DNA from: Hymenobacter persicinus
GTDB lineage: Bacteria; Bacteroidota; Bacteroidia; Cytophagales; Hymenobacteraceae
Reading direction: 5' to 3'
Length of the DNA stretch: 64,000 nt
Assembly: GCF_004167665.1 (NCBI RefSeq)
Contig: NZ_SEWE01000012.1
Coordinates: 42,104 to 106,103, forward strand
Shown here: piece after piece, positions 29,163 through 37,603 of the stretch
Position numbering within the stretch: the stretch's first letter is position 1
Layout: each line of letters starts with the position of its first letter
Made by a program: the position numbers and the translations under genes
The notes under the pieces: generated by a model
Seen by the model: the letters and a program-made list of their open reading frames with translations, nothing else
Told to the model about the DNA's origin: nothing
Databases searched by the model: none

Positions 29163-30695
29163 TTAGTGCTTGAAGTGACGCACGCCGGTCATCACCATGG
29201 CCATGCCGAGCTGGTCGCAGGCGGCGATGCTGTCGGCGTCCTTGATGGAGCCGCCGGGCTGCACCACGGCCCGGATGCCGGCCGCCCCGGCAATTTCCAC
29301 GCAGTCGGGAAAGGGGAAAAAGGCGTCGGAGGCCATCACGGCCCCTTGCAGGTCGAAGCCGAAAGCTTTGGCTTTCTCAATGGCCTGGCGCAGGGCATCC
29401 ACCCGGGAGGTTTGGCCCACGCCCGACGCCAGCAGCTGTCCGGCCCGGGCCAGCACGATGGTGTTGCTCTTGGTATGCTTGCAGATTTTGGCCGCAAACA
29501 CCAGCGCCTCGATTTCCTCGGCCGTTGGCGGCGACTGGGTCACGACCTTGAAGTCGGCGGCCGTTTCGGACTGCCGGTCGAAGTCCTGCTCAATAACGCC
29601 GTTGAGCAGGGTTTTCACCTGCTTTTTGGGGAACTGCACCGGCTTTTGGCGGAGCAGGATGCGGTTTTTCTTGCTTTGCAGAATGGGCAGGGCCGCCGCC
29701 TCGAACTCGGGGGCAATGAGCACCTCGAAAAACAGCTTGTTGAGTTCCTGGGCCGTGGCCTCGTCCACCGGCCGGTTCACGATAATCACGCCCCCGAAGG
29801 CCGATACCGGGTCGCAGGCCAGGGCGTGCAGGTAGGCTTCGGTGAGCGTGGGAGCCTGGGCCACGCCGCAGGCGTTGGTGTGCTTGAGAATGGCGCAGGC
29901 GGCCGCCCCATCCTGAAATTCCTGCATCAGCAGCACGGCCGCGTCCACGTCGACGAGGTTGTTGTAGCTGAGCTGCTTGCCGTGCAGCTGGTCGAACAGG
30001 GCGGGCAGGTCGCCGTAGAACGTGCCGGCCTGGTGGGGGTTTTCGCCGTAGCGCAGGGCCGTAGCGGGCTTCTGGCTCACTTTCAGCGCCGTGCCATCGA
30101 CGGCCGTGCCCTGGCTCAGGTACTGGAAAATGTGGGTGTCGTAGTGCGAGGTCGTTTCGAAGGCGGCGGCGGCGTAGTGGCGGCGGTCCTCGAGGTCGGT
30201 GGCGCCGTTCTTGGCCCGCAGCAGCTCCGTGACGGCCTCGTACTGGTCGCGGCTGCTGACCACGAGCACGTCGCGGTAGTTTTTGGCCGCGGCCCGCAGC
30301 AACGAGATGCCGCCGATGTCAATCTTCTCAATCGTTTCTTCCTCCGAGGCGTCGGCGGCCACAGTTTCCTCGAACGGGTACAAATCCACGATAACCAGGT
30401 CGATGGGCGCAATGCCGTGCTGCTCGGCCTCGGCCAGGTCACCGGCCTCGTGACGCCGGTGCAGAATGCCACCGAACACCTTCGGGTGCAGGGTCTTGAC
30501 ACGCCCGCCAAACACGGCCGGGAAGCCCGTCAGGCTCTCTACGGCGGTTACTTCGGCGCCCTGTTCTTCCAGAAACTGCTGAGTGCCGCCGGTGGAATAC
30601 AGCTTCACGCCGTGTTCTTTGAGCAGCGCCACCAGAGGCTCCAGACGGTCTTTGTAATAGACGGAAACGAGGGCGGAGCGAATCGGCTGCGACAT
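29163..30695 (-). CDS. purH: Bifunctional AICAR transformylase / IMP cyclohydrolase
   Basis: Catalyses the last two steps of de novo IMP synthesis. 510 residues, normal length. The N-terminal MGS-like cyclohydrolase domain begins RSALVSVYYKDRLEPLVALL and includes FPAVFGGRVKTLHPKVFGGIL; the C-terminal transformylase domain contains LRYGENPHQAG, ILKHTNACGVA and SGVGQTSRVDA. The start is the ATG at 30695 (MSQPIRSALV). A minus-strand TACCTTCG at 30731-30738 sits 35 bases upstream and is the likely -7 element. Confidence 0.97.
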   Translation of the reverse strand: MSQPIRSALVSVYYKDRLEPLVALLKEHGVKLYSTGGTQQFLEEQGAEVTAVESLTGFPAVFGGRVKTLHPKVFGGILHRRHEAGDLAEAEQHGIAPIDLVIVDLYPFEETVAADASEEETIEKIDIGGISLLRAAAKNYRDVLVVSSRDQYEAVTELLRAKNGATDLEDRRHYAAAAFETTSHYDTHIFQYLSQGTAVDGTALKVSQKPATALRYGENPHQAGTFYGDLPALFDQLHGKQLSYNNLVDVDAAVLLMQEFQDGAAACAILKHTNACGVAQAPTLTEAYLHALACDPVSAFGGVIIVNRPVDEATAQELNKLFFEVLIAPEFEAAALPILQSKKNRILLRQKPVQFPKKQVKTLLNGVIEQDFDRQSETAADFKVVTQSPPTAEEIEALVFAAKICKHTKSNTIVLARAGQLLASGVGQTSRVDALRQAIEKAKAFGFDLQGAVMASDAFFPFPDCVEIAGAAGIRAVVQPGGSIKDADSIAACDQLGMAMVMTGVRHFKH

Positions 30696-30730
30696 GGTAC
30701 GAATGGTTTGGGCTGAACGATTTGGACGCA

Positions 30731-30738
30731 CGAAGGTA
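30731..30738 (-). promoter_or_regulatory. Probable -7 element of purH
   Basis: Minus strand TACCTTCG (one base off TAnnTTTG), 35 bases upstream of the ATG. No PurR-type operator recognised. Confidence 0.4.
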
Positions 30739-30895
30739 GCCACCTCCCCGTCGGGGCCCCAACCCGCGGTGTTACCGAATTGTTACCCTGCCCCCATCTC
30801 AATGATTGAGTCGTACGTATCGATACCGTTGAGCCGGCCATTTGCTGCTGCTGCTGAAGCGCAGTTGAGTCCTTCCACCTCCTTTCCTACTTTCT

Positions 30896-32104
30896 ATGTC
30901 CCTGCTGGCTTACCCCGCGGCCGATTCCGCCCCCGACGCTTCGCCGGAGGCGTCGGCTGCCGCTCCGGTTGCATCTTCCGTTTTGCCCGACCCCGAAGCC
31001 GCCGCTGCGGCAGTGGCCGGACAGCTGGCCAGTGCCGCAGCGGCCACCGACCAAGAAGGCGGCTTTCCCACCCAGGAGTTTGACTGGCTGCGCGCGGCGG
31101 GCCTGCTCACGGCCCCGCTCCCCGCTGCGGAAGGTGGTTTCGACCTCATGGCGCCGACGCATACGCTACGCTTGCTGCGCACGCTCAAGCACATCGGGCG
31201 CGGCAACCTGGCCGTGGGCCGGGTGTACGAAGGCCATGCCAACGCTTTGCAGCTTATTCAGCGCTTCGGGCGGCCCGAGCAGGTACGGCGCTGGGCTCAG
31301 GATGCCCGCGCCGGCCATCTGTTCGGGGTCTGGAACACCGAGGCCCAGGACGGCGTGCAGCTCGAGCCCCTGCCTGGGGGCCGCTACCGGCTGCGGGGCA
31401 GCAAAACGTTCGGCTCCGGGGCCGGCCACCTTTCCCGCCCGCTTATCACCGGCGCCCTGCCCGACGGCGGGGGCTGGCAGATGTTTGTGCTGCCCACCGA
31501 TGAGCAGCCCACGACGCTAAACTCCTCGTTTTGGCAGCCCTTGGGCATGCGGGCCACGGCCAGCTTCCGCGTCGAGCTGACCGGGGCCGAAATCGGACCC
31601 GACGACCTGCTGGGCCAGCCCGGCGACTACTACCAGCAGCCCTGGTTCAGCGGGGGGGCCATCCGGTTTGCCGCCGTACAGCTGGGCGCGGCCGAAGCCG
31701 TGTTCGATGAAACCCGCCGCTTTTTGCGCGAGTTGGGCCGCCTCGACGACCCGTACCAGAAAATGCGGGTCGGGGAAATGGCCATGCTCATTGAAAGCGG
31801 CAACCACTGGCTGCGCGGGGCGGCTGAGCATGCCGCCCGCCCGCTGGCTCACGCCGAGGCGGAGGCCACGGTGGCCTACGCCAACCTGGTGCGCACGGCC
31901 ATTGAGGAAATCTGTTTGCGAGTGCTGCCCCTGGCCGAGCGGAGCGTAGGGGCCCGCGGCCTGCTGCGTCCCGAGCCCTTTGAGCGCCTGCACCGCGACC
32001 TGACCCACTACCTGCGCCAGCCCGCCCCCGATGCCGCCGTAGCCGATGCCGGCCGCTTCGTGTTGCACCATGCTGCCCCGGCTTACTCGCTCTGGAATGC
32101 CTGA
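30896..32104 (+). CDS. Acyl-CoA dehydrogenase-like flavoprotein
   Basis: 402 residues with a low-complexity Ala/Pro/Ser N-terminus (about 1-40). The acyl-CoA dehydrogenase fold follows: helical N-domain (DWLRAAGLLTAPLPAAEGGFDL), the middle beta-domain (GVWNTEAQDGVQ, RLRGSKTFGSGAGHLSRPLITG) and a C-terminal four-helix region (IRFAAVQLGAAEAVFDETRRFL). The usual glutamate base is not obvious, so substrate and activity are uncertain; it may oxidise a carrier- or sugar-bound acyl group rather than feed beta-oxidation. First gene of a compact cassette: it overlaps the PIG-L gene by 8 bases. No beta-oxidation genes nearby. Confidence 0.85.
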   Translation: MSLLAYPAADSAPDASPEASAAAPVASSVLPDPEAAAAAVAGQLASAAAATDQEGGFPTQEFDWLRAAGLLTAPLPAAEGGFDLMAPTHTLRLLRTLKHIGRGNLAVGRVYEGHANALQLIQRFGRPEQVRRWAQDARAGHLFGVWNTEAQDGVQLEPLPGGRYRLRGSKTFGSGAGHLSRPLITGALPDGGGWQMFVLPTDEQPTTLNSSFWQPLGMRATASFRVELTGAEIGPDDLLGQPGDYYQQPWFSGGAIRFAAVQLGAAEAVFDETRRFLRELGRLDDPYQKMRVGEMAMLIESGNHWLRGAAEHAARPLAHAEAEATVAYANLVRTAIEEICLRVLPLAERSVGARGLLRPEPFERLHRDLTHYLRQPAPDAAVADAGRFVLHHAAPAYSLWNA

Positions 32105-32840
32105 TCCTGTTGTGCTGCCCTTCGCCGAATTTCCCCTCCAGCCTGCCGGCTTTGCCGCTACGTTGGGCTCCACGGTCGTCATTGCCCCTCACCCTGACGA
32201 TGAATCGTTGGGCTGCGGGGGTCTGCTGGCGCTGCTGCGGCAGGCTGGCCAACCCGTTAGCACAGTGCTGGTCAGCGACGGAACCATGTCGCACCCCAAC
32301 TCCCGCAAGTTTCCGCCCCTGGCCCGGCAGGTGCTGCGCGAAGCCGAGTTGCGTGAGGCTCTGCAGATTCTGGGCGTAGCGGCCGACGCGACCCTGCACC
32401 TACGCCTGCCCGACGGGGCCGTTCCCAGCCGCGGGGCAGCCGGATTTGAGCCGGCCGTGGCGCGCCTGCGGGCTTATTTGGCCGCCCAGCAGCCCCAGAC
32501 CGTGCTGGTGCCCTGGCGCCGCGACCCTCACCCCGACCACCGGGCCACGAGTCAGCTGGTGCACGCGGCCTGCGCCGAACTGCCCGTTGCGCCCCGCTTG
32601 GTGGAGTACGTCGTGTGGGCCTGGGAGCGGGCGGCCGCAGCGGATTTGCCCCAGCCAGGGGAAGTGCACGGTTGGCGGCTCGACATTACGGCGGTGGTCG
32701 GCATCAAGCAGCAGGCCATTGCGGCCCACCGCTCCCAGCTTAGCCCCGTCATCGATGACGACCCCACGGGGTTTCGGCTTTCCGAAACGATGCTGGCGCA
32801 CTTTGCCCAGCCCTTTGAGGTGTATCTGGAAGCCAAGTAG
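32097..32840 (+). CDS. PIG-L family N-acetylglucosaminyl deacetylase
   Basis: 247 residues; the ATG at 32097 overlaps the acyl-CoA dehydrogenase stop by 8 bases, so translation is coupled. Zinc/catalytic motif HPDDE is seen in VVIAPHPDDESLGCGG, and the second motif in RRDPHPDHRAT. PIG-L (LmbE-like) enzymes remove N-acetyl groups from GlcNAc on glycolipids, mycothiol/bacillithiol precursors and antibiotics. No signal peptide, so it works in the cytosol. With the neighbouring NodS-like methyltransferase and GT2, deacetylation of a glucosamine-type sugar is the likely job (inference). Confidence 0.92.
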   Translation: MPDPVVLPFAEFPLQPAGFAATLGSTVVIAPHPDDESLGCGGLLALLRQAGQPVSTVLVSDGTMSHPNSRKFPPLARQVLREAELREALQILGVAADATLHLRLPDGAVPSRGAAGFEPAVARLRAYLAAQQPQTVLVPWRRDPHPDHRATSQLVHAACAELPVAPRLVEYVVWAWERAAAADLPQPGEVHGWRLDITAVVGIKQQAIAAHRSQLSPVIDDDPTGFRLSETMLAHFAQPFEVYLEAK

Positions 32841-32947
32841 CCTACCCTGCCGCCGAGCCTGTGCTTAGGACCGGAGAGAATTCCGCAGCCCGGGCGCCGG
32901 TTTTTGCGTTTAGCCGGAGCAGCGCATCGTTGCCTTACTCCGCCCGC

Positions 32948-33547
32948 ATGAATCAGAACCAGCCCCATACGTTGCCCGCCGGTTATTTCGACGAGGTATA
33001 CCGCGCCAACACCGACCCCTGGAATTTTGAAACCAGCGCCTACGAGCGGAAAAAGTACGCTACTACGGTAGCAGCCCTGCCTAGCCCAACGTACCAGCGC
33101 GGCTTCGAGGTGGGCTGCTCTTTGGGCGTGCTGACTGAACAATTGGCCCAGCGCTGCGCCCACTTGCTGGCCGTGGATATTGCCGAAGCTCCGCTGAAGC
33201 GCGCCCGGCAGCGCTGCGCCCATCTGCCCCAGGTCGAATTTCAGCAAATGAGCCTGCCCGCCGAGTTTCCCGTCGGCGCCACGTTCGATTTAATTGTGCT
33301 GTCGGAGGTGGGCTACTACTGGGCGCTGCCCGACCTGGAACGCACGGCCGAGTTGCTTCTGGCCGCACTGGAACCGGGCGGCCACCTGCTACTGGTGCAC
33401 TGGACCCCGCCCGTGCACGACTACCCCCTCACCGGCGACGAAGTGCACGACTTCTTTTTACGCCAGGCCACCCCGGCCGGTCCTCTGGAGCACCTGGAGG
33501 GCCAGCGCCACGAAACGTACCGCCTGGATTTGCTGGCCCGGCGCTAA
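32948..33547 (+). CDS. NodS-like SAM-dependent N-methyltransferase
   Basis: 199 residues from the ATG at 32948. The opening YFDEVYRANTDPWNFETSAYERKKY is the signature of the NodS family (DPW.F..S.YE..KY), and the SAM-binding motif I is FEVGCSLGVLT, followed by LLAVDIAEAPL. Rhizobial NodS methylates the free amine of a deacetylated chitooligosaccharide. Here the gene follows a PIG-L deacetylase, which would create exactly such an amine. The stop region overlaps the convergent GT2 gene by four bases. The acceptor is unknown. Confidence 0.88.
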   Translation: MNQNQPHTLPAGYFDEVYRANTDPWNFETSAYERKKYATTVAALPSPTYQRGFEVGCSLGVLTEQLAQRCAHLLAVDIAEAPLKRARQRCAHLPQVEFQQMSLPAEFPVGATFDLIVLSEVGYYWALPDLERTAELLLAALEPGGHLLLVHWTPPVHDYPLTGDEVHDFFLRQATPAGPLEHLEGQRHETYRLDLLARR

Positions 33548-34773
33548 CGGGCTACGGGCGTTGCTTCCTGGCAGGCCACCAGCAGGCGCAGCTCCCGGAC
33601 CGCCTGGGTTAGGGCCATGGGGGGCCAGCGCCGCAGCCAGCCAGTACGCGTCTGCTCCTGCTGCACCCAATGCCAGAGCTGTCCAAACGTGAAAGCCCAG
33701 CGCAGGCGCTGATCCAGGTCAAAAGAGTCGATGCCAAGCTGGGCACCCACGGCCTGCACCGCGTCGGAAGGCAGCCTGAGCATGGGCAGGCTACTCTGGT
33801 TGGTTTGCCGCCAAAGCTCCCGCAGCTGCCGACGGGCCTGCCAGAGGGCCGCCAGCCGGGCGGGGCTTTCCACCACAGGCTCCTGCTGCTGCTCGTGCAG
33901 GGCAGCCCACTGCCGCAGCTGCCACGAAAGCCCCACCTCCACCCTGCCCTCGTGCCGGTCGGAGGTGAACACGCGCACGGCCGGACTGTGGCGTACCCGC
34001 AGGTCGTGCCGACACAGGGCCTGGTAAAGGGCCTCGTCTTCCAGATAAGCTACCACGGGCAGCCCCCCCACCCGCCGGTAGGCCGCCGCCGTGATGGCGA
34101 AGCTGGCCCCGAAGTGCTGGTGGTGGCGGGGCCACGGGTCGGCGGCATCCGGGTCGAGCAGGGCCTCGAGGCGGGCGCGTAGCAGCTGATAAGCCGTGTC
34201 GCGCAGTTGATAACTCCGGGTGGCCGCGCCCGGCGTGGCCGGCAGCGTCAGAATACGGCCGCCCAGGGCATCGGCGCGGTAAGTGAGCATTTCGGCCTGG
34301 GTAGCCGCCAGCCAGTCGGGGGCCGCGCAGGTGTCACCGTCGGTGCTCAGAATCAGCCCGGCGCCGGGGCAAACCAGCTCCAGGCGCCGGTAGGCCTCGT
34401 CCATGAGCAGGCGGCGGGCCTTGCCCACGTGGGCCTCGGCGGGCGGCAGCGTTATTTCGGCCACGTGCACCACCAGGTCTGGATGGGTCGCGGCAAACCG
34501 CCGGGCCACCGCGGCCGTGGCGTCTTGGCAATTGTTGGCCAGCACCAGTACTTCGTAGCTGCCGGGGCTCAGCGGCTGCCCCCGCAGGTCGGTTTGCGCC
34601 GCCAGAGCCGCCAGGGCCCGGGGCAGGCTGTCGGCTTCATCCTTCACCGGAATCACGACGGTAGCCCGCAACTCCAGTCGGGGTGCCGGATTGCTCCGCC
34701 AGGGTTCGGCTGAAACGGCGGCTGCCGTAGCTTCCTGAGCGGCGTGAAAGCGAAAAGGGGCAGCGTGTTCCAT
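33544..34773 (-). CDS. Family 2 glycosyltransferase (soluble)
   Basis: 409 residues, ATG at 34773. GT-A fold: RATVVIPVKDEADSLPRAL at the start, VLANNCQDAT, the metal-binding DxD in LSTDGDTCAAP and the acceptor-side ED in YLEDEALY. No membrane helices, unlike NodC or cellulose synthases, so it glycosylates a cytosolic acceptor. It is convergent with the methyltransferase, overlapping by four bases (33544-33547), which ties it physically to the cassette. Product and donor sugar unknown. An alternative is an unrelated glycosyltransferase that merely abuts the cassette. Confidence 0.85.
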   Translation of the reverse strand: MEHAAPFRFHAAQEATAAAVSAEPWRSNPAPRLELRATVVIPVKDEADSLPRALAALAAQTDLRGQPLSPGSYEVLVLANNCQDATAAVARRFAATHPDLVVHVAEITLPPAEAHVGKARRLLMDEAYRRLELVCPGAGLILSTDGDTCAAPDWLAATQAEMLTYRADALGGRILTLPATPGAATRSYQLRDTAYQLLRARLEALLDPDAADPWPRHHQHFGASFAITAAAYRRVGGLPVVAYLEDEALYQALCRHDLRVRHSPAVRVFTSDRHEGRVEVGLSWQLRQWAALHEQQQEPVVESPARLAALWQARRQLRELWRQTNQSSLPMLRLPSDAVQAVGAQLGIDSFDLDQRLRWAFTFGQLWHWVQQEQTRTGWLRRWPPMALTQAVRELRLLVACQEATPVAR

Positions 34774-34936: not shown

Positions 34937-36106
34937 TTAAAACGCCTCGCCGATGCTGAAGTAAAGGCCTGAAGAGCCGCCGCGGCCCACGCCGTAGTCA
35001 AAGCGGATGTTGAGCCGGTCGCGGCGGTTGAACTGAAAGCGCACCCCGGCCCCACCCGTGGCCTTGAGGCTGTTTTGGCCCAGCTCCGACACCGTGCGGC
35101 CCACCTGGCCCAGGCCGCCAAAGAGTACGCCGTTGAAGCGCCCGATCAGCTTGCAGCGCAACTCGCCCTGCACGGCCAGCATCTGCCGGTCACGGTAGCG
35201 GCCGTCGTAGTAGCCGCGCAGGATTTTGTCGCCGCCCAGGTTGGCCAGCTCCCGAAACGGCACGCTGCCCACGTTGAACTGCCCGACCAGCTGCACAGCC
35301 AGAATGGTTTTGTTCTGCTGATCCAGGGGCTGGAAGTGGCGGGCATCGAGCAGGAAGCGGCTGAAGCGAAAGTCGCTGCCCAGGACGCCGCCGTTGAAAA
35401 AGCTGCTTACTTCTAAGTAATTGCCCCGAAAAGAGCTCAGGATATTGTCGCGGCCGTCGTACACCACCGAAGGCCCGAGGCCGGAGACGAACGTGCTTTG
35501 TTCGTACTCGCGGGCGGGGCGTCGCAGTAGCAGGCTGGGCCGCTGCTGGGGCGTGCCCTCGTCGATGTTTTCCTTGATCTGCACGTCGCGCAGGTAGGTG
35601 CCGCGGTATTGCAGGCCCACAAACAGGTTGCGGCGCACCTGCCGCAGCACCCGCTCGGCCACAATGAGCACCTTGTACTGAATCACCGACTTGTCGTCAC
35701 GGCTGGTGCTGGGGCCGTAGCCGTAGTAGTTGATGGGAAACTTATAGTAGTTGCTGATTTCACTGGTCAGCAGAAACCGCTCCCCGGGCGTAAACACGTT
35801 GTGGGTCAGCTGCACCAGACTTTGGTTGCGCTGGGTGCGCCAGGCCAGCAGGCGGGCATTCGATTTGCGCGAGGCGGTATCGGTACCAAAGCGCCATACG
35901 GGCAATACTGCCAGGCCGTAGCCCAAGCCGGTTTCGGGCTGAGAAAACACGATGGGAAACGGAATAAAGCTGGGCTTGTCGCGCCGGCCGGCCGGGGCCA
36001 CGGCAGCCCCCGTGGCCGGGTCGTCGGGGCCGGGCGGGCTGGTTTGGGCGTAAGCGGGGCAGGCCAGAAAAGCCGTCAGCAGGAGTAGCGGGTAGAGTTG
36101 ACGCAT
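34937..36106 (-). CDS. Omp85/BamA-type outer-membrane barrel protein without POTRA domains
   Basis: 389 residues from the ATG at 36106. Signal peptide (LYPLLLLTAFLACPAYAQ), short Pro-rich linker, then a barrel-like C-terminal Omp85 (surface antigen D15) domain: SFIPFPIVFSQPETGLGYG, VVYDGRDN, the conserved GGDKILRGYYDGRYRDR lid-type motif (RG.Y.GR.R) and a terminal strand ending in Phe (FSIGEAF). No POTRA repeats are visible, so it is not BamA itself; such short barrels are of unknown function and may act in protein or lipid export. A paralogue lies directly upstream. Confidence 0.88.
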   Translation of the reverse strand: MRQLYPLLLLTAFLACPAYAQTSPPGPDDPATGAAVAPAGRRDKPSFIPFPIVFSQPETGLGYGLAVLPVWRFGTDTASRKSNARLLAWRTQRNQSLVQLTHNVFTPGERFLLTSEISNYYKFPINYYGYGPSTSRDDKSVIQYKVLIVAERVLRQVRRNLFVGLQYRGTYLRDVQIKENIDEGTPQQRPSLLLRRPAREYEQSTFVSGLGPSVVYDGRDNILSSFRGNYLEVSSFFNGGVLGSDFRFSRFLLDARHFQPLDQQNKTILAVQLVGQFNVGSVPFRELANLGGDKILRGYYDGRYRDRQMLAVQGELRCKLIGRFNGVLFGGLGQVGRTVSELGQNSLKATGGAGVRFQFNRRDRLNIRFDYGVGRGGSSGLYFSIGEAF

Positions 36107-36234
36107 AGGCAGCAGGAGCGGGAAAGTCGCGGCCGGATCAGGCGGCGGCGGCGGAAGATACAGGTTTGCCACCAACTCCGCCGGCCGGGCTCACCAGCGG
36201 CAGCCCGGCAGCAACTCCGGCGCGGCTTCAGCCC

Positions 36235-36269
36235 AAAAAAAGCCCTTCCGACGCATCGAAAGGGCTTTT
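36235..36269 (-). terminator. Terminator between the two Omp85-like genes
   Basis: AAAAGCCCTT / AAGGGCTTTT stem (10 bp) with A- and T-runs on both sides; it lies 21 bases after the stop of the upstream paralogue, so the two barrel genes are separate transcripts. Confidence 0.85.
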
Positions 36270-36289
36270 CTGATTACCTGCGTTCCGCT

Positions 36290-37501
36290 TTAGAAGGCTT
36301 CGCCGACGGCGAAGATGATACCCGAGTTGCCGCCCGAGCCCACGCCGTAGTCGAGACGGATGTTGAGCCGGTCGCGGCGGTTGAAGCGGAAGCGGCCACC
36401 GAAGCCGGCCGCCACTTTCGTGTCTTTGAACTTGTAGTCGGAAAGGTTGTAGCCCACCTGGCCCAGGGCGCCGAACACGGCCCCATCGATGCGCCAGAAC
36501 AGCTTCTGCCGGATTTCGGCCTGCACGGTGGTAAACTGCCGGTTGCGGAAGCGCGCCTCGTAGATGCCGCGCATCAGGTAGGCGTTGTTGTAAGCGGCCC
36601 CGCCGAGCGTGGCGCCCATGCCGCCCAGCTCCCGAAACGGCACATTACCGGAATGGTACTGGCCCATGAACTGCGCCGCGAAAATGGTGTTGTTCGAGCC
36701 AAACAACGGGTTGAAGTGGCGGGCGTCGAGCTGGTAGCGGGTAAACTTGTAGTCGCTGCCCAGGCCCGAGCCATTGAAGAGCACGTGCGCATCCACGAAG
36801 TTGCCGGTGTAGGTGGCCAGCTGGTTGTCGCGGCCGTCGTAGAGCAGGGCCGGGCCCACGCCGGAGCTGATGCCGCCGTCGCGCTGGTCCTGGGGCAGCC
36901 GGTAGTACACGTTGTCGGGGTTGCCGGCCTCGCCGCCGTCCTTGAGCTTGACCTTACCCAGGCTCGTGAGCCGGTAGCGTAGCCCCACAAACAGGTCAGG
37001 CGCCACGATTTTGAGCACTTTTTCGTCGAACACAACCAGCGGATACTGAATCGTAACCTCGTCGCGCTTGACGGTATTGTTGCCGATGCCGTAGTAGTTG
37101 AAGGCCAGATCGTAGTAGCTCAGCTCCCCGGAAAGGAAGAATTTCTCCTCCGGCGTGTAGATGTTGTGGGTGAGCTGCACCGTCGTCTGCTTTTTCTGCG
37201 AAATCCAGCTGATCAGGCGGGCATTCGATTTGCGTACGGTGGTGTCGGTGCCGAAGCGCCACACGGGCAGAATAGCAATGCCGCCGGCAAAACCGGTTTC
37301 CTGCTGGTAAAAGGCAATGGGCACCGGAATGAAGTTGGGCTTCTTGTCCCGGCGGCCGTCATCATCGTCGGCCGCGGCCCGGCCGGGGATGGTGGGGGCG
37401 GGCACCGAAGTCGGGGCCGCGTCGGGGGTGGCAGGAACGGACTGGGCACGGGCCACGGAGGTCAGCAGACCGGCGGCCAGCAGGGGGTACATGAAGCGCA
37501 T
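36290..37501 (-). CDS. Omp85/BamA-type outer-membrane barrel protein, tandem paralogue
   Basis: 403 residues from the ATG at 37501. Same layout as its neighbour: signal peptide (YPLLAAGLLTSVARAQ), acidic/Pro linker, NFIPVPIAFYQQETGFAGGIAILPVWRFGTDT, LYDGRDNQL, then LMRGIYEARFRNR and a terminal FAVGEAF. Both end in a DRLNIR-D-DYGVG-type strand, showing a tandem duplication that has since diverged. The barrel should span the outer membrane; no POTRA domains. Function unknown. Confidence 0.88.
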   Translation of the reverse strand: MRFMYPLLAAGLLTSVARAQSVPATPDAAPTSVPAPTIPGRAAADDDDGRRDKKPNFIPVPIAFYQQETGFAGGIAILPVWRFGTDTTVRKSNARLISWISQKKQTTVQLTHNIYTPEEKFFLSGELSYYDLAFNYYGIGNNTVKRDEVTIQYPLVVFDEKVLKIVAPDLFVGLRYRLTSLGKVKLKDGGEAGNPDNVYYRLPQDQRDGGISSGVGPALLYDGRDNQLATYTGNFVDAHVLFNGSGLGSDYKFTRYQLDARHFNPLFGSNNTIFAAQFMGQYHSGNVPFRELGGMGATLGGAAYNNAYLMRGIYEARFRNRQFTTVQAEIRQKLFWRIDGAVFGALGQVGYNLSDYKFKDTKVAAGFGGRFRFNRRDRLNIRLDYGVGSGGNSGIIFAVGEAF

Positions 37502-37603
37502 AGAAGGGAGGTTGGGCAGGAAATACGGCTCGCCGCCCAGCGGACCCACGGTCCGGCCATTGCGGCGGCGATATATGCTAACGCAACCGTTGGGCTTACG
37601 GTT

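Follow-up and report, generated by a model that had tools for sequence, protein, structure and literature searches.

Whether four enzyme genes that lie together in the genome of Hymenobacter persicinus form a pathway, and what such a pathway might make, was the question raised by a 64,000-nucleotide stretch of contig NZ_SEWE01000012.1 (positions 42,104 to 106,103, forward strand; hereafter the window). An original prediction, made from the sequence alone, had described three same-strand genes, for an acyl-CoA dehydrogenase (hereafter the flavoprotein), a PIG-L deacetylase and a NodS-like methyltransferase, and a convergent gene for a family 2 glycosyltransferase (GT2); the open reading frame (ORF) coordinates bore this out, including the 8-base overlap of the flavoprotein and PIG-L genes and the 4-base overlap of the methyltransferase and GT2 genes. 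The four genes, here called the cassette, almost certainly constitute a real pathway-like unit, and we give about even chances that it makes a small, N-methylated, flavin-oxidised, cytosolic amino-sugar conjugate, likely within a stress-survival programme. Every substrate, the order of the steps, the oxygenation and the protective role are what we infer, and are worded conditionally below.

A search with the flavoprotein only returned 64 loci, 63 of them labelled Hymenobacter or Hymenobacteraceae and one from a metagenome-assembled genome (MAG) of Chloroflexia. The complete four-gene set, in the same order and with the GT2 gene convergent, was present at 58 of these loci, which speaks against a chance grouping. 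The incomplete Hymenobacteraceae loci (L019, L037, L048, L049 and L057) are truncated at contig ends, and in the Chloroflexia MAG (L065), whose contig ends inside the flavoprotein gene, no PIG-L gene lies between the flavoprotein and methyltransferase genes. Since 60 of the 64 loci carry purH on the side of the flavoprotein gene, the cassette occupies one fixed site in Hymenobacter; Omp85-like genes lie on the opposite side in most loci. None of eight flanking probes (the probe labels mreB, mreC, ubiA, kdsC and fdx were assigned by reading translations) matched at L035, L063 and L065, and L041 starts at a contig end. Inserts of about 1 to 3 kb were seen in five Hymenobacter loci, between the PIG-L and methyltransferase genes in L027 and between the methyltransferase and GT2 genes in L031, L058, L061 and L066.

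Four gene profiles, whose only sources were the window and 12 Hymenobacter loci, were applied to 26 non-Hymenobacter loci with a NodS-like gene, hand-picked from match lists. All four genes were recovered in 16 of the 21 cassette loci of other phyla, and 20 of the 21 held three or more, so that the set is conserved in distant phyla, the test named beforehand in the original prediction. All four genes were found in Deinococcota, Cyanobacteriota, Pseudomonadota (alpha, beta and gamma) and Actinomycetota (Kitasatospora), which with Bacteroidota makes five phyla; three cassette genes, in the Chloroflexia MAG, add Chloroflexota as a sixth. At the five further loci (one Sulfitobacter fusion, three from Chloroflexota and one from Bacteroidota) the other three profiles were unmatched; the Sulfitobacter fusion carries a GT2 domain of its own, and one of the three Chloroflexota contigs measures 3.4 kb. 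Methyltransferase matches at E <= 1e-15 occurred in 4 of 201 Chloroflexota genomes, one being the source genome of the query locus, and beside the other three no partner was found in the stretches examined, that of G399 being the 3.4 kb contig.

The composition of the cassette varies among distant hosts. The GT2 gene of Deinococcus radiodurans is located elsewhere on the same replicon, no GT2 gene was found within the stretch examined in Roseomonas, Paraburkholderia shows the methyltransferase and GT2 genes only, and the PIG-L gene of Cupriavidus is some 3 kb distant, on the opposite strand. The Rubrobacter cassette, in which a pyridine-nucleotide oxidoreductase gene separates the methyltransferase and GT2 genes, has no PIG-L gene; a NodB-type polysaccharide deacetylase gene stands beside the flavoprotein and methyltransferase genes. 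Over a set of 15 cassettes the four genes gave correlated pairwise distances (r 0.58-0.83, a value reached by at most 1 in 5000 permutations), part of which is owed to shared species history; Pandoraea (short GT2 match), Cupriavidus (PIG-L outside the operon) and five loci without all four genes were excluded. Plasmid searches matched 82, 69, 157 and 92 records, and 20 records, hand-picked for diversity, were examined; some were chosen after the lists had already displayed neighbouring families, and the 55 Rhizobium methyltransferase matches lay outside the set examined. Two complete cassettes (L172 and L175) share a single plasmid in Sphingomonas parapaucimobilis.

Within the family, the methyltransferase was matched at E <= 1e-20 in 107 of 200 genomes, including 103 of the 116 listed genomes that are the own one or belong to its genus; it was present in two of six genera, and 73 unmatched genomes outside the listing apparently belong to other genera. 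Some methyltransferase match at E <= 0.001 was found in 42 genomes of a Bacteroidota sample (148 genomes), the strong ones being the own genome and one of the same genus, besides one at 2e-23 (G005), in whose 16 kb stretch no partner gene of the cassette was found. The nearest relatives seen outside Hymenobacter were those of Nostoc-type cyanobacteria, the Chloroflexia MAG and Deinococcus, and the cassette would have been gained early by the genus, probably via transfer. Its GC and third-position GC contents are similar to those of four flanking genes, and the flavoprotein, searched with regard to a phage origin, had no match in the phage collection.

Table 1. Genes of the cassette and the flanking purH gene (positions in the window)
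Gene	Position	Strand	Description
Flavoprotein	30896..32104	+	402 aa; acyl-CoA dehydrogenase superfamily, DszC/SfnB-like; dehydrogenase catalytic Glu absent
PIG-L (LmbE) family de-N-acetylase	32097..32840	+	ATG at 32097; 247 aa; metal-site motif intact
NodS-family S-adenosylmethionine (SAM)-dependent methyltransferase	32948..33547	+	ATG 32948; 199 aa; distinct from true NodS
GT2	33544..34773 (start 34773)	-	409 aa; convergent; soluble GT-A fold glycosyltransferase
purH	29163..30743	-	Pfam; upstream flank marking the fixed Hymenobacter site; outside the pathway

The methyltransferase start most likely lies at the ATG listed in Table 1 rather than at GTG 32861, because homologues start there. A promoter and terminator scan gave no signal above chance. 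Downstream of the GT2 gene, two tandem genes of alike sequence (34937-37549), the first with an Omp85 superfamily match, recur in many Hymenobacter loci.

Pfam matches were judged against curated cut-offs, which all four cassette proteins exceeded. The deacetylase matched PIG-L (PF02585) at 1.5e-27, with 97 bits against a cut-off of 28.2, and its residues P31, H32, D34, D35, H145, D147 and H148, which do not vary among the 10 homologues aligned, that of the window being one, belong to P-H-x-D-D and H-x-D-H motifs that we take to be metal ligands. It shares family and metal-site motif with BshB, MshB and diacetylchitobiose deacetylase, the first and last of which are among its solved relatives in the PDB. 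Its best NCBIfam models were BshB1 and BshB2, and bacillithiol and mycothiol protect against oxidants; on these two points the cassette might be thought to make a low-molecular-weight thiol akin to them, with the PIG-L protein in a BshB- or MshB-like step. The scores lie far below the equivalog cut-offs, however (BshB1 67.9 against 182.5; MshB 23.1 against 224.35), the neighbouring enzymes differ from those of the BshB and MshB pathways, no cysteine ligase was annotated beside cassettes in the annotated stretches examined, and four other PIG-L matches in the own genome could serve bacillithiol. A thiol product, set aside as the main explanation on the BshB1 score and the other PIG-L matches, is thus regarded as very improbable.

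The methyltransferase matched Pfam NodS (PF05401) at 1.9e-16, with 60.9 bits against a cut-off of 24, and reached only 73.1 bits of the 300 demanded by the NCBIfam NodS model, which rules out a true NodS. The closest solved chain was 4isc, followed by NodS (3ofj); 4isc, presumably from Pseudomonas syringae, is a functionally unnamed methyltransferase structure and a close member of the cassette methyltransferase family. No nod genes adjoin the cassette, the neighbours being purH and Omp85-like genes; the search for nod genes was confined to these neighbours within the window. The GT2 protein matched Glycos_transf_2 at 2.8e-8 and showed no NodC-type transmembrane segments, its highest 19-residue hydropathy being 1.0.

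That a GT2, a de-N-acetylase and a NodS-family N-methyltransferase would work on an amino sugar recalls the logic of Nod-factor synthesis by NodC, NodB and NodS, the parallel drawn originally. The likeness extends to the Rubrobacter cassette, where a NodB-type enzyme takes the place of the missing PIG-L. It gains also from two fusions, L076:8393-11470 and L164:1-3153, in which a NodS-type methyltransferase is joined to a NodB-type polysaccharide deacetylase; L076 has a GT2 domain as well, and flavoprotein and PIG-L genes were absent from the stretches examined around both. The differences are that the cassette has PIG-L instead of NodB, a soluble GT2 instead of the membrane synthase NodC, a methyltransferase far under the NodS cut-off, no NodA acyltransferase among its four genes, and an added flavoprotein. 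The PIG-L and NodS-like pair fits the amino-sugar chemistry first proposed, and on balance we favour an amino sugar as the substrate of the cassette.

None of the four proteins contains a hydrophobic stretch of membrane length, in agreement with the cytosolic location first suggested, and no polymerase or flippase is encoded among the four genes. Both points count against a cassette that decorates an exopolysaccharide or envelope glycan, to which GT2 would attach a sugar that is then deacetylated, methylated and oxidised, with export by genes elsewhere. So does the presence of the core set in Sulfitobacter and Acinetobacter towneri, where the stretches examined have no genes annotated for envelope glycans. 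In favour of such a glycan, extra glycosyltransferase genes adjoin the Novosphingobium cassette and lie near those of Jiella and Bradyrhizobium, genes for a UDP-galactopyranose mutase and a protein like monogalactosyldiacylglycerol (MGDG) synthase lie downstream in Nostoc, and polysaccharide genes accompany a NodS-NodB fusion in one plasmid region. Weighed together, these observations leave glycan decoration doubtful, though deserving of attention, beside a small cytosolic conjugate.

The flavoprotein is the member of the cassette for which an acyl-chain role had been proposed, and its Pfam matches, all above cut-offs, were to Acyl-CoA_dh_2 (PF08028, 3.3e-10), Acyl-CoA_dh_N (PF02771, 2.7e-8) and Acyl-CoA_dh_1 (PF00441, 4.3e-7). 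These domains would suit an enzyme that truly dehydrogenates or oxidises a thioester or a substrate bound to a carrier, and hence a product (an acylated amino sugar, or a lipid) whose chain is desaturated. The dehydrogenase catalytic glutamate was sought in 37 homologues. At the C-terminal (EGT) site none of the 37 cassette flavoproteins has it, against all 4 canonical dehydrogenases of the own genome, and it was also missing at the alternative position; both sites are placed where we take them to lie. Desaturation of an acyl or lipid chain, as originally envisaged, was rejected on this ground. The four genes include none for an acyltransferase, a CoA ligase or a carrier, and nothing was seen that pointed to a lipid product.

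Among sequence families, the best matches of the flavoprotein are flavin monooxygenases (DszC, SfnB and MsuC) rather than dehydrogenases. A profile search of the PDB placed TdsC, MsuC and DszC near 1e-30, the best dehydrogenase at 2.4e-24, and the N-oxygenases KijD3, 3mxl (a nitrososynthase, presumably ORF36) and DnmZ at 1.4e-20, 1.9e-20 and 2.2e-15, respectively. NCBIfam SfnB was matched by 10 of 11 family members and DszC by 6 of 11, and for the window protein the scores (79.1 bits against 430.9 for SfnB; 72.9 against 850 for DszC) missed both equivalog cut-offs. The alignment for the fold comprised 37 proteins, of the 120 listed from 2226 homologues at E up to 1e-20 among scored candidates, with the window and six loci. 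The AlphaFold2 model (predicted local distance difference test, pLDDT, 85.7) gave DszC and TdsC as best folds, and these two headed the PDB profile, Foldseek and VIA lists. The fold is common to the class D flavin monooxygenases (DszC, SfnB and MsuC) and to KijD3, ORF36 and DnmZ, with an identity of about 19-25% for the cassette protein. The His of its Glu-Gly-His helix aligns with a DszC His, and the motif Lys-x-Phe-x-Ser-Gly is common to both.

Several observations weigh against a monooxygenase. A single-sequence search ranked TdsC (2.2e-20) and then butyryl-CoA dehydrogenase 4u83 (4.4e-18) ahead of MsuC, and the best fold Z score, 39.5 for DszC, exceeded those of butyryl-CoA dehydrogenase (38.4) and ColB1 (38.2) by only about 1, so that the fold cannot decide the reaction. 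The C-terminal His-Asp-Pro stretch of DszC, whose His we take to be His391, is Arg-Gln-Pro (the region reading Leu-Arg-Gln) in the cassette family, and the DszC mechanism would thus be only partly kept. The role of DszC His391 is mentioned in the accessible part of PMC11134501. Finally, no flavin reductase is encoded among the four genes of the window. A true dehydrogenase, to which the proximity in fold and the single-sequence ranking lend some weight, is nevertheless judged unlikely, given the missing glutamate and the monooxygenase families.

The N-oxygenases KijD3, ORF36 and DnmZ act on amino sugars, and oxygenation of an amine by the cassette flavoprotein is predicted tentatively. In the proposed pathway to an amino-sugar conjugate, the soluble GT2 would move an N-acetyl-hexosamine onto an acceptor, with a nucleotide sugar as donor, PIG-L would strip the N-acetyl group, the NodS-like enzyme would methylate the freed amine, and the DszC-like flavoprotein would oxidise what results. 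This oxidation would most probably use oxygen and occur at the amine, and would not be the desaturation of an acyl chain. As a long shot, N-hydroxylation of the N-methyl amino sugar by the flavoprotein could give a widespread and hitherto undescribed stress metabolite, a hydroxylamine or nitrone of the sugar that would trap radicals alongside catalase and trehalose in drying- or radiation-tolerant bacteria (Hymenobacter, Deinococcus, Nostoc and Acinetobacter). The flavoproteins of D. radiodurans (L080:4190-6526) and D. radiophilus (L083:5045-7291) are fused at the N-terminus to a domain, some 380 residues long, with likeness to GH-A clan glycosidases (25% identity to a GH1 protein near the L035 cassette, and weak GH53 and GH42 matches); the fusion may mark an additional sugar step.

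A link to stress survival, absent from the original prediction, is suggested by neighbouring genes and by expression in Acinetobacter. On plasmids, catalase genes lie 0.2 kb (Sulfitobacter), 1.2 kb (Cupriavidus), 2.0 kb (Novosphingobium) and 4.4 kb (A. towneri) from the cassette. Among 18 records searched, a full-length catalase gene was within 10 kb in 4 of the 7 records having one (expected 0.58, P 0.0011, across records of seven genera; two records with partial catalase matches were dropped from the count), and distances of 20 to 318 kb were found for D. radiodurans, Paraburkholderia and the first S. parapaucimobilis cassette. The second S. parapaucimobilis cassette adjoins catalase and Dps-type genes. 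In Acinetobacter baumannii, ACICU_02432-02435 are named in the accessible text of PMC5660220 as glycosyltransferase, SAM-dependent methyltransferase, LmbE and acyl-CoA dehydrogenase-related protein, marked as one operon and given as lowered 31- to 62-fold, together with the otsAB trehalose synthesis genes and catalase and as part of a list of many genes, in a pair of colistin-dependent mutants. By gene names and order these are apparently the equivalent of the cassette, and the same four genes stand, with no assigned function in the text available, beside the photoreceptor gene blsA (PMC6240043, PMC9020721); the window copy differs in its Bacteroidota host and convergent GT2 gene. The family comparison was made through the four-gene A. 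baumannii cassette of L162, a record other than ACICU. BLUF photoreceptor genes were seen near the Bradyrhizobium cassette (L072:3640-4071) as well as in the blsA region of Acinetobacter.

Against a stress role stand the following. The 10 kb limit was set after annotated loci had been seen, and the loci were hand-picked from match lists; a trehalose phosphatase gene lies near the cassette in 2 of 4 records (P 0.07), and Ku within 10 kb in 1 of the 5 records having it. The Hymenobacter flanks, with purH and Omp85-like genes, and the Nostoc flanks, with glycan genes, hold no recognised stress genes. The A. baumannii data (PMC5660220) concern lipooligosaccharide (LOS)-deficient colistin-dependent mutants rather than a stress experiment. 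In a drying study of Acinetobacter Tol 5, several acyl-CoA dehydrogenases were lowered and catalases were not prominent in the part available (PMC13130816), which may speak against a stress role; from that part, membership of a cassette gene among the lowered dehydrogenases could not be told. The weak Ku and trehalose phosphatase counts and the Hymenobacter and Nostoc flanks, together with arsenic-resistance genes found within about 5 kb of three cassettes (L078, L083 and L172), would also suit a specialised metabolite without protective role, the stress link being a by-product of plasmid accessory islands. This appears rather unlikely in view of the catalase proximity, the lowering together with catalase and otsAB in the A. 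baumannii mutants so far as that text covers it, and the methyltransferase in 103 of 116 own or same-genus genomes, a prevalence judged unusual for a specialised metabolite. We lean, with some reserve, towards a cassette that serves stress survival, the likely stresses being oxidation or drying.

Two further sources were consulted and put aside: no link to the cassette could be made from the accessible part of the work on EcfG-dependent glycosyltransferase genes of Sphingomonas melonis (PMC6599016), which was not used, and PMC7784981, so far as available, concerns Actinomyces gene enrichment, a topic unrelated to the cassette. A literature search, which covered main texts and few subscription journals, found no function or product assigned to the four-gene set. 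Deinococcus, Nostoc, Acinetobacter and several alphaproteobacteria carry the set as well, for which no product was found in print. If the cassette does make a protective amino-sugar compound, this would be a stress solute or antioxidant of a new class, and would provide a function for the 2226 flavoprotein homologues that are now misleadingly named acyl-CoA dehydrogenase.

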